Shown in pieces: positions 21,015-56,492 of a DNA stretch of 64,000 nt. How positions within the stretch are numbered: the first letter of the stretch is position 1; each line of letters begins with the position of its first letter. A program made the translations under genes and the position numbers. The DNA comes from Acidobacteriota bacterium (GTDB lineage: Bacteria; Acidobacteriota; Thermoanaerobaculia; UBA5066): assembly GCA_029781975.1 (NCBI GenBank), contig JAKOVQ010000025.1:15001-79000 (forward strand), read 5' to 3'. The notes beneath the pieces are model-generated. The model did no database searches. It saw nothing but the letters and a program-made list of their open reading frames with translations, and was not told where the DNA came from.

Positions 21015-22393
21015 GGAGCCGAGCGCGCACCCCGGAGGGCGTCGACGACGATCGGGTCGTCGCCGGGGTCGACGGAGCGGAGGTCGAGGACGACCCGCCC
21101 GTCCGCGACGCGGGCGATCACGGGCGTCGGGGCCCCCCGGAGCGCGGCTGCGAGGTCGTCCTCGGTTCGCCCCGGCGCCCGGATCCCGACGCCCAGCGAC
21201 GGGAGCGTCGCCTCGGTCCCGGTCCCGCCGCCCGCCACGGCGACGAGGTCGAGCGGCTCGGCCTCGTACCCGAGGCGGCGCGCCTCGGCGGCGAGCGCCT
21301 CGGCCCTCTCGCGGAGGGAGTCGAGCGGGACGCGGAGCATCCGGTAGAACGGGATCTCGTCGAGTCGCCCCGAGAGGTGGAGGTCGAGCGTCGCGGCCAG
21401 GGCCGCCAGGACGAGCTTGTCGGGCCTCAGGGCGCGCGAGAGGGGGTTCGCGGCGGCCCGGGCGACGAGCTCCGCGCGCCCGAGGAGGATCCCGGCCTGC
21501 GGACCGCCGAGGACCTTGTCGCCGGAGAAGCAGACGAGGTCGGCGCCCGCGTCGATCGCCTCGAGCGGGACCGGCTCGTCGGCGAGGCCCGGCTCGGGGA
21601 AGCGGACGGGGGCTCCGGACCCGGCGTCGTAGAGGAGGGGGACGCCCGCGGCCCGTGCGAGGGGAGCGAGCTCGGAGAGGGGGACCGACTCGGTGAAGCC
21701 GACGATCCGGTAGTTCGAGGGCCTCACCTTCAGGACCGCCGAGGCCCCCGCGGCGAGGGCCTCGCGGTAGTCGGCCGCGGTCGTCTTGTTCGTCGTCCCC
21801 ACCTCGAGGAGGCTCGCCCCGCTCCGCGCGAGGATCGACGGGACCCTGAAGTCCCCGCCGATCGCCACCAGCTCCCCCCGCGAGACCGCCACCGGGCGGC
21901 CGTTGGCGACGGTGTCGAGCGCGAGGAGGAGGGCGGCGGCCGTGTTCGTCACCGCGAGGGCCCCGACGTCGGGACGCGAGGGGGCGAAGAGCGCGAGGAG
22001 GAGGGGGCGGACGTGCTCGCCCCGCTTGCCCCTCCCGCCCGTCGAAAGGTCGAGCTCGAGGGTGCTCGCCCCGGCCGCCCGGACGACGGCCTCCCGGGCC
22101 GCGTCCCCCAGCGGGGCGCGTCCCAGGTTGGTGTGGAGGAGGACCCCGGTCGCGTTGACGACGGGGCGGGGGCCGGCCGGGGGGCGCCCCGAGAGGCGCT
22201 CCTCGGCCCACGCGAGGAGGGTTCCGGGGACGTCGCCGCCGGAGGCGTCGAGGTCGCCCCGGCGGAGCCGCTCCGCGGCGAGCCGGAGGGTCTCCTTCAC
22301 GAGCGCCCGGCCGTGCCGGCCGGAGAGCGCCCGGCCGCGCTCGCTCCCGAGGAGCGCTTCGATCGACGGAGGGATCTCTCGGGGGTGGCCCAT
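21011..22393 (-). CDS. selA: L-seryl-tRNA(Sec) selenium transferase
   Basis: A 460-residue PLP enzyme that converts seryl-tRNA(Sec) to selenocysteinyl-tRNA(Sec) using selenophosphate. The family signatures are plain: NATGVLLHTNLGRAPL, the AVTNTAAALLLAL region, EVGTTNKTTAADY and the PLP lysine K293 in CFSGDKVLGGPQAG. The length is normal for SelA. The ATG has no Shine-Dalgarno, but TACCAT lies 9 nt upstream. No selB, selD or selC is in the window. Its presence means the organism makes selenocysteine and supports recoding of the in-frame TGA in the DedA-rhodanese gene at 51.3 kb. Confidence 0.95.
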   Translation of the reverse strand: MGHPREIPPSIEALLGSERGRALSGRHGRALVKETLRLAAERLRRGDLDASGGDVPGTLLAWAEERLSGRPPAGPRPVVNATGVLLHTNLGRAPLGDAAREAVVRAAGASTLELDLSTGGRGKRGEHVRPLLLALFAPSRPDVGALAVTNTAAALLLALDTVANGRPVAVSRGELVAIGGDFRVPSILARSGASLLEVGTTNKTTAADYREALAAGASAVLKVRPSNYRIVGFTESVPLSELAPLARAAGVPLLYDAGSGAPVRFPEPGLADEPVPLEAIDAGADLVCFSGDKVLGGPQAGILLGRAELVARAAANPLSRALRPDKLVLAALAATLDLHLSGRLDEIPFYRMLRVPLDSLRERAEALAAEARRLGYEAEPLDLVAVAGGGTGTEATLPSLGVGIRAPGRTEDDLAAALRGAPTPVIARVADGRVVLDLRSVDPGDDPIVVDALRGARSAP

Positions 22394-51115: not shown

Positions 51116-52090
51116 CTAGGCGGCGACGCCGCCGTGGAGCGCGAGCTCCGACGCGTCGAGGGGGTCGGTCGGAAGGCCCGCGGCGACCCAGGCGTCGAAG
51201 CCCCCTTCCAGGGGCCGGACGTTCCGGTACCCGCGCTCGAGGAGGAGGCGTGCCACACGGGCCGCCGAGGCCTCGCTCGGTCACGTGCAGTAGAGGGCGA
51301 CGTCCTTGTCGAACGGGATGTCGCGGAGCCTGGAGTCGATCTCGCCCAGGTCGGCGACGAGCGCCCCCGGGATCTTGCGGGGGTCGTCGCGGCGCGACAG
51401 GCGGCTCCTCACGTCGACGACGACGAGGGAGCCGTCCGCGGCGAGGAGCCGCTCGGCGAGGTTCTGCGGCGTGAGTCGGGACATCCGGAGGGTCCGGAGG
51501 GTCTGCTGCCGCCGCCAGAGCCGGGCCGCGAGGTAGACCGCGAGGGCGGCGGCGAGGAGGCCGAGGGCGCCCGCGCCGAAGCGCCGGAGGAAGGCGAGGA
51601 CGGCGTCCACCTGCTCGTGGAAGACCGCCCCGAGGCCGATGCCGGCTCCCGCCCAGAGGAGCGTCCCCGCCGCGTCGTAGGCGAGGAAGCGGAGGTACGG
51701 GGCCTTCAGCGCGCCGGCGACCGGGACCGAGACGGCCGACAGCCCCGGGACGAACTTGGCGAAGAGGAGGGTGCGGAGGCCGAGCCGGTCGTAGGTGGCC
51801 GACGTCTGCTTGACGCAGGTGTCGGCCGAGAGGGAGAGGCCGCAGAGGAGGCGCAGGACGTGCCAGCCGTACTTCCGCCCCAGGAGGAACCAGATCGTGT
51901 CGGCCGCGAGCGCGGCGAGGAGGACCGAGAGGAGGAGCTGCGGGCCCGACAGCGACTCGCGGACGACGAGCGCCCCCGCCACGACGAAGAGCGGCATCGC
52001 GGGGATCGGGAGGCCGAGCTGCTCCAGGAAGACGTTGCCGGCCACGAGGAGGACGCCCGAGCGGGCGACGGCGGAGGTGAGACCGTCCAC
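51116..52090 (-). CDS. DedA-rhodanese fusion selenoprotein (in-frame TGA at residue 270)
   Basis: A 324-residue protein if the TGA at 51283-51281 is read as selenocysteine. Residues about 1-190 are a DedA/SNARE-associated membrane domain (GNVFLEQLGLPIPAMPLF, FLLGRKYGW, FAKFVPGLSAVSVPVAGA). Residues about 205-320 are a rhodanese sulfurtransferase domain (VVVDVRSRLSRRDDPRKIPGA). The active loop reads Y267-C268-T269-U270-PSEASAARVA. After the TGA the same frame carries the normal rhodanese end (ARLLLERGYRNVRPLEGG, FDAWVAAGLP) and stops at TAG (51118-51116). DedA-rhodanese homologues that I recall have CxCPNEA here, so U replaces Cys. Start GTG 52090. It is likely involved in sulfur or selenium transfer or redox at the membrane. 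Confidence 0.85.
51247..51266 (-). promoter_or_regulatory. Candidate bacterial SECIS hairpin
   Basis: Positions +15 to +34 after the UGA can form GGCG-GCC / GGC-(A)-CGCC: seven pairs with one bulged A and a 5-nt apical loop CGUGU. The loop begins 22 nt after the UGA and has a GU in it. Known bacterial SECIS elements have a bulged stem and a G-containing apical loop about 16-37 nt after the UGA, as in E. coli fdhF. Folding was done by eye. Confidence 0.6.
51281..51283 (-). other. In-frame TGA, predicted selenocysteine codon
   Basis: This codon is flanked by GTCGCCCTCTACTGCACG on the 5' side and CCGAGCGAGGCCTCG on the 3' side. It sits two residues after the rhodanese catalytic Cys. Without recoding the protein would end before its last rhodanese helices. 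Confidence 0.8.
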
Positions 52091-55109: not shown

Positions 55110-56492
55110 ATGACCGTTCCCACCCCTGCCGAGCTCGCCGAAGGGATCCTCGCGGGGCAGACCCGCGCCGTCGCCCGGGGGATCACCTGGGCCGAGGGGG
55201 CCGACCCGAGGTTCCCGGAGCTCCTCTCGCTCATCTTCCCGAAGGGTGGACGGGCCCGGGTCGTCGGGCTGACCGGCTCCCCGGGCGCGGGGAAGTCGAC
55301 CCTCACCGCCGCGCTCGCCAGGCTGGCCCGGGCCGAGGGGAAGCGGGTCGGCATCGTCGCCGTCGACCCCTCCTCGCCCTTCTCGGGCGGCGCGATCCTC
55401 GGGGACCGGATCCGGATGCAGGAGCTCTACACCGATCCCGGCGTCCTGATCCGGTCGATGGCCACCCGCGGCCACCTCGGAGGGCTGGCCCGGGCGACGG
55501 CCGACGCCGTCGACGTCCTCGACGCCGCCGGCTTCGACGAGATCCTCGTCGAGACGGTCGGGGTCGGCCAGGACGAGATCGAGGTCTTCCGGCTCGCCGA
55601 GAGCTGCGTGGTGGTCCTGACCCCGGGCATGGGGGACGACATCCAGGCGATCAAGGCCGGCCTGATGGAGGTCGCCGACGTCTTCGTCGTCAACAAGGCC
55701 GACCGCGAGGGGGCCGACCGGGTGGTCCACGAGATCCTCCAGATGCTGGAGCTGGGGGAGCACGGCGCCTGGATCCCGCCCGTCCTGAAGACCGTCGCGC
55801 GGGCGGCGACCGGGATCCAGGAGCTCCGCGACGCCCTGGAGCGCCACCGAGCCTTCCTCGCCGGCCCCGAAGGCGCCTCCCGGCGGCGCGAGAGGACGGT
55901 CCGGCGGATCGAGTCGATCGTCCAGCAGCGCCTCCTCGCCGACCTCCACGGCCTTTCGGGCGCGAACGGCTCGCTCGCGAGCGAGGCGGAGCGGCTGGAG
56001 GGGCGGACGCGCGACCCGTTCGCGGCTGCCGAGACCCTCCTGGCCGCGGTCCGCGACCGGGGTGGCCCGGCGCGGGGGCTCGTGACGCGGATCGCCCACC
56101 TCGGCGTGGCCGTCGAGTCGCTGGAGGAGGGGGGGCGCTTCTACGACCTCCTCGGCCTCCTCGAGGAGCACGCCGAGGTGGTCGAGTCGCAGAAGGTCTC
56201 GACGTCGTTCCGGCCGGTGGGCGAGTCGTCCATCGAGCTCCTCGAGCCGACCTCGCCCGAGAGCCCCATCGCAAAGCACCTCGCCAGGCGGGGTCCCGGC
56301 GTCCACCACGTCTGCCTCGAGGTCGCCGACGTGGCGGCGGCCCTCGCGAAGCTGAAGGGGGCCGGGGTCCGGCTCGTCAACGAGGAGCCGTTCCCCGGGG
56401 CGCACCGCTGCCTCGTCGCGTTCGTCCACCCGGCGTCGACGGGCGGGATCCTCCTCGAGCTCTCCCAGAAGCTGCCGGACGAGCCCCGCTGA
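55110..56492 (+). CDS. meaB: MeaB GTPase fused to methylmalonyl-CoA epimerase
   Basis: A 460-residue fusion. Residues about 1-320 are a MeaB/ArgK G-protein chaperone of methylmalonyl-CoA mutase: P-loop GSPGAGKST, DPSSPFSGGAILGDRIRM, and the switch and ETVGVGQ segments, NKADREG. Residues about 325-460 are a glyoxalase-fold methylmalonyl-CoA epimerase: metal His in RIAHLGVAVESLEEGGRFY, then GPGVHHVCLEV and a final metal Glu in GGILLELSQ. Both act in converting propionyl-CoA to succinyl-CoA, next to the mutase. No mutase gene is in the window; the carboxylase genes are at 27-31 kb. Confidence 0.9.
   Translation: MTVPTPAELAEGILAGQTRAVARGITWAEGADPRFPELLSLIFPKGGRARVVGLTGSPGAGKSTLTAALARLARAEGKRVGIVAVDPSSPFSGGAILGDRIRMQELYTDPGVLIRSMATRGHLGGLARATADAVDVLDAAGFDEILVETVGVGQDEIEVFRLAESCVVVLTPGMGDDIQAIKAGLMEVADVFVVNKADREGADRVVHEILQMLELGEHGAWIPPVLKTVARAATGIQELRDALERHRAFLAGPEGASRRRERTVRRIESIVQQRLLADLHGLSGANGSLASEAERLEGRTRDPFAAAETLLAAVRDRGGPARGLVTRIAHLGVAVESLEEGGRFYDLLGLLEEHAEVVESQKVSTSFRPVGESSIELLEPTSPESPIAKHLARRGPGVHHVCLEVADVAAALAKLKGAGVRLVNEEPFPGAHRCLVAFVHPASTGGILLELSQKLPDEPR

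Follow-up and report, generated by a model that had tools for sequence, protein, structure and literature searches.

A probable selenoprotein joining a DedA-type membrane domain to a Cys-x-Sec rhodanese domain in an Acidobacteriota bacterium

Rhodanese selenoproteins with a CxU active site are already catalogued, both as family NF041203 (rhodanese_LYCAU; PMC13188914, PMC9312934) and as 'Rhodanese form 3, CxU' (PMC13188914). Fusions of a DedA protein to a rhodanese domain are also known in a form with Cys in place of Sec (PMC10127716, PMC12893004), an example being PA1209 of P. aeruginosa (PMC12893004), and the link of the rhodanese fusion to the lipid carrier has been called unclear in this literature. 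Here we describe a DedA-rhodanese fusion gene with an in-frame TGA codon at the rhodanese active site, located in a 64,000-nt stretch of an Acidobacteriota genome (contig JAKOVQ010000025.1, positions 15,001 to 79,000), which is referred to below as the window.

The gene occupies 51116-52090 on the minus strand and is complete, encoding 324 residues from a GTG start at 52090, which was set by homology, to a TAG stop at 51116-51118. The original prediction had given these coordinates correctly and had left the strand unstated; a plus-strand reading of 51116-52090 was ruled out, the frame there being unrelated. Translated with TGA as a residue, the frame contains one in-frame TGA, at codon 270 (51281-51283, minus strand), which separates the DedA part and most of the rhodanese from the final 54 residues, as had been proposed. 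The membrane part, a VTT/DedA domain at residues 29-154 (51629-52006, minus strand), matched Pfam PF09335 with E 1.9e-11 and 44.9 bits against a gathering cut-off of 33.9, and the rhodanese domain at residues 215-303 (51182-51448, minus strand) matched PF00581 with E 1.6e-10 and 41.7 bits against a cut-off of 22.2. The latter match crosses the TGA, and the last 54 residues, ending at TAG, make up an ordinary rhodanese C-terminus. The TGA lies two residues past the catalytic Cys268 of the rhodanese loop (codon 51287-51289, minus strand; Cys in 81/81 homologues), giving the CxU active-site motif YCTU at residues 267-270, with Pro as the next residue (YC-T-U-P). Ordinary gene calling cuts the protein short at this active site. 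An AlphaFold2 model of the fusion protein built from the family alignment had a mean pLDDT of 85.6, its best matches in a structure search of the PDB were rhodanese folds, and rhodanese-type proteins were likewise recovered when PDB sequences were searched by profile.

Since the TGA falls in a draft assembly of 54 contigs, and gene prediction would end the protein there, we considered whether it is a real premature stop in a pseudogene or a miscalled TGC or TGT. In a survey of 101 genomes of the same class (the window's own and 100 relatives), column 270 was TGA in 26 of 27 full-length homologues, with identities reaching down to 36-52%, and Cys in the remaining one. Among 81 non-redundant homologues, drawn from Acidobacteriota, Betaproteobacteria and other groups, the codon was TGA in 62 cases and specified Cys in 19, with no other residue at this position; the Cys residues expected there by the original prediction were thus found. 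Four Sec/Cys changes are required on the homologue tree. A scan of named genomes added further Sec forms from Betaproteobacteria and from MAGs labelled Rokuibacteriota, together with Cys forms in Herminiimonas, Nitrosospira, Nitrospira and others. The codon is shared by a relative 82% identical to the window protein (L024), it is conserved across genera, and an intact frame and a downstream hairpin follow it in the 62 non-redundant sequences. This conservation refutes the pseudogene and sequencing-error explanation, to which we assign next to no probability. Several homologues end on a true TGA stop, which implies that TGA is not reassigned genome-wide. Two irregularities were seen in the homologue collection: one Betaproteobacterial Sec form (L088) carries an extra in-frame TAG at homologue codon 67, which points to a broken copy or to an error of assembly, and four MAG records titled Bordetella parapertussis or Chitinophaga pinensis (L078, L101, L109, L112) group with environmental Betaproteobacteria, so that their labels look wrong.

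A putative bacterial SECIS hairpin was located at 51247-51266 (minus strand), with its apical loop, CGUGU, at 51255-51259. In the Sec forms the hairpin begins about 14 nt 3' of the TGA and has a five-base loop, usually CGUGU, carrying a G within its first two bases. The inner three pairs can form in 62/62 Sec forms, and covariation was seen at synonymous sites. Pair 24-30, which links the third positions of the Ala277 and Val279 codons, reads C-G in 34 Sec forms and G-C in the other 28, and is thus paired in all 62, compared to 11 of 19 Cys forms. This switch largely separates Acidobacteriota-type from Betaproteobacteria-type sequences and therefore represents few independent events. Pair 21-33, which joins two third positions in most members, was C-G, G-U or G-C in 20 of 26 sequences of the first set and a standard pair in 56/62 Sec forms. 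Arg278, encoded within the loop, uses CGT in 55/61 Sec forms versus 4/18 Cys forms (Fisher p 6.6e-8), and CGT at this residue ranked first for codon bias among 97 conserved columns. In one homologue (L127) the encoded Arg-Val is replaced by Gly-Gln with the stem intact and the loop changed to GGUCA. As the single-sequence folding energy of most members was no better than that of shuffled sequences, the case for the hairpin rests on comparison rather than on energy, and an Rfam scan of the region returned nothing meaningful. A strict 7-bp ungapped stem model fits only 69% of cells because the outer stem is bulged in some clades; we regard the inner three pairs and pair 21-33 as the robust part of this predicted structure. 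Pairs of Sec and Cys forms with covarying synonymous sites provide a clean data set for the study of bacterial SECIS evolution.

The machinery for selenocysteine insertion is encoded in the same genome. As previously noted, the window itself contains selA (selenocysteine synthase) at 21032-22369 on the minus strand (TIGR00474, 425 bits, over cut-off), which is not adjacent to the fusion gene and is needed in trans. Beyond it, we found selB, a tRNA-Sec with UCA anticodon and two selD genes, so that each of selA, selB, selC and selD is represented. Of the two selD genes, L019 (G000:C15:537242-538171) has an in-frame TGA and probably encodes a Sec-containing SelD, whereas the other (L018) has none. 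Among tree rows, SelB was detected over cut-off in 47 of 54 with the Sec form versus 4 of 19 with the Cys form, an association that is descriptive because only 2-4 phylogenetically independent Sec/Cys contrasts exist. The seven Sec-form rows lacking a SelB over cut-off include L072, which has a SelB fragment, and many of the seven are draft genomes.

UGA read-through occurs in bacteria. The TGA might accordingly be a true stop under regulated termination, yielding a truncated DedA protein with a partial rhodanese and read through by a near-cognate tRNA rather than by tRNA-Sec, and the Sec-form genomes without SelB over cut-off would fit this. However, column 270 alternates with Cys only, never with Trp, Arg or other residues, the position and loop of the hairpin match bacterial SECIS elements, and the Sec machinery is present in the window's genome and in most Sec-form genomes. 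We consider regulated termination very unlikely. The Sec/Cys-only column, the conserved hairpin and the sel genes together strongly support the proposal that this TGA is selenocysteine, and we put the probability that the window gene is a genuine selenoprotein with UGA 270 decoded as Sec at about 0.93, a figure derived from comparative sequence analysis.

The membrane part of the fusion carries a cysteine pair of its own. Cys83 (codon 51842-51844, minus strand) and Cys92 (51815-51817, minus strand) are each conserved in 80/81 fusions, the single exception having an alignment gap there, and are also kept in Cys-form fusions from Burkholderia and Cupriavidus. With C268 and U270 they make up the only four Cys or Sec residues of the window protein, all of which are conserved in the family. 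For comparison we used 20 non-fused DedA loci from same-class genomes; Cys was found at position 83 or 92 in none of the 19 that could be aligned. Most of these stand-alone proteins have Arg at both 112 and 118, whereas the window protein has K112 and S118 and the 81 fusions have K (rarely R) at 112 and S, A, N or G, mostly Ser or Ala, at 118. The arginines at the second reentrant tip of DedA proteins, R130 and R136 in E. coli YghB, are proposed to bind undecaprenyl phosphate; this two-arginine tip is missing from the fusion when YghB numbering is transferred by the six-residue spacing rather than by alignment. These replacements by Lys and Ser/Ala suggest that the DedA part is no longer an ordinary flippase and that it has probably lost undecaprenyl-phosphate flipping.

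A selenoprotein whose DedA part still flips undecaprenyl phosphate, regulated by a redox-sensing rhodanese/Sec domain, has nevertheless to be weighed, given that COG0586 DedA proteins are proposed UndP flippases with rhodanese fusions counted among them (PMC10127716), and that Asp64 is retained in 78/81 fusions. Set against it are the altered tip positions described above and the loss of E23 in many Sec forms, and we judge a retained flippase function unlikely. In a further reading, to which we give a low probability, the fusion would stand apart as a class of its own among membrane transporters or oxidoreductases: the cytoplasmic Cys-x-Sec rhodanese would pass sulfane sulfur, selenium or electrons to Cys83/Cys92, and the DedA domain would have been repurposed from lipid flipping.

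The presence of C83/C92 in fusions and their absence from stand-alone DedAs led us to infer a four-residue thiol/selenol relay. On the comparative evidence, UGA 270 is decoded by SelB and tRNA-Sec under guidance of the hairpin about 14 nt downstream, and the product is a DedA-type membrane domain bearing, probably on the cytoplasmic side, a rhodanese domain with a Cys268-x-Sec270 active site; the charge pattern suggests this side for the rhodanese and for the cysteine pair alike. In the proposed mechanism, Cys268 would take up sulfane sulfur or become oxidised, and Sec270 would then attack Cys268, forming a selenenyl sulfide; the Cys268/Sec270 pair would afterwards be re-reduced or would hand electrons or sulfur on to Cys83/Cys92. 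This membrane-anchored relay for sulfane sulfur handling or thiol repair is our working model, held with well under even odds; the selenium/sulfur-transfer function put forward in the original prediction likewise has the standing of an inference. With an invariant set of four Cys/Sec residues and a lost arginine, the function is open to direct testing.

The gene neighbourhood gives some indication of the physiological context. Around many Betaproteobacterial Sec forms, genes on the same strand encode pirin, a LigB-type dioxygenase, an NADPH-dependent FMN reductase, DoxX, YceI and a nitroreductase; LysR-like, MFS-like and glyoxalase-like neighbours were named by sequence reading alone, and parts of this set also lie beside three distant Acidobacteriota homologues (L099, L115, L127). 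SseA is a rhodanese-like protein. In M. tuberculosis it belongs to the reported DoxX-SodA-SseA membrane oxidoreductase complex (PMC6930017), and the Betaproteobacterial mix of neighbours is reminiscent of quinone/electrophile regulons, MhqR/YodB among them (PMC6798810). The Betaproteobacterial neighbours suggest that the protein acts under thiol, persulfide or electrophile stress; in the separate-class reading given above, the fusion would be a selenium-dependent membrane sulfur/thiol relay serving bacteria in electrophile stress. The stress-gene set is absent at the window's own locus, where the neighbours are a sigma-54 activator with GAF domains, a MeaB protein and unrelated genes, and the Acidobacteriota neighbours in general (methyltransferase, anti-sigma-like and HEAT-repeat proteins) offered no functional lead. 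Also in the window, a frame at 55110-56492 (plus strand) encodes a MeaB GTPase and, continuing in frame after it, a glyoxalase-type domain, and is possibly a methylmalonyl-CoA epimerase fusion.

A selenoprotein could also act on selenium itself, in selenite or selenide entry or in delivery toward SelD. A link between DedA and selenite resistance is reported (Ledgham 2005, cited in PMC10127716), and rhodanese domains are reported to take part in selenium chemistry in YbbB/SelU (Wolfe 2004). A Cys-form DedA-rhodanese that keeps the C83/C92 pair is present in Cupriavidus metallidurans CH34 (L174, NC_007974.2 near 144420-144914), its identity with the Ledgham gene not being implied. However, Cys forms are common in genomes without SelB, and the conserved neighbours showed no link to sel genes, which makes a dedicated role in selenium handling improbable. 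The relay model remains our preferred account of the function.

Compared with the known systems, the window protein stands closest in its active site to NF041203, with which it shares the rhodanese fold and the C-x-U motif and which is the best NCBIfam match of its rhodanese part (76.5 bits, E 1.4e-21). NF041203 is, however, a single domain of 126 positions, whereas the rhodanese described here forms the C-terminal end of a DedA membrane protein that has a cysteine pair of its own; as the score falls short of the 115 bits set as the family cut-off, we did not file the protein under this family, and none of the matches in the genome that contains the window and in 40 relatives reached that cut-off. 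Separately, stand-alone CxU rhodaneses with a similar downstream hairpin, also below the NF041203 cut-off, were observed (L162, L163, L164, L165, L167), with some genomes of the class carrying several each, and probably form an expanded, under-annotated selenoprotein group. The claim of a probable new selenoprotein therefore holds for the DedA-fused form, for which no report was found, but not for CxU rhodanese selenoproteins as such, which were catalogued before. In a literature search that was thin on subscription journals, no paper named a DedA-rhodanese selenoprotein, an absence that is not proof, and no relatives of the fusion were found in viral contigs.

Because ordinary gene calling stops at the active site, annotation is probably wrong for an enzyme that is widespread in the Acidobacteriota and Betaproteobacteria of soil and groundwater, and its recognition extends the catalogue of predicted selenoproteins by a membrane-linked member. 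Among these, TsoB (NF045694, rhodanese/DsbD fusion-like) is similarly a rhodanese selenoprotein tied to a membrane-type domain (PMC13188914), but has a UxxxxU motif and a DsbD-like partner, and the window protein did not match NF045694 at E 0.001. With the COG0586 DedA flippases (YghB, UptA) the fusion shares the VTT/DedA fold, including weak NCBIfam UptA matches, while differing in the Lys and Ser/Ala that replace the tip arginines, in the additional C83/C92 and in the rhodanese domain. The known Cys-form fusions, annotated as DedA family protein/thiosulfate sulfurtransferase GlpE, have the same domain order, but those examined here carry Cys where the window protein has Sec, and mostly lack the conserved CGT/hairpin signature. 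The DedA-rhodanese selenoprotein bears on the question, raised in PMC10127716, of what purpose rhodanese domains serve on DedA proteins.
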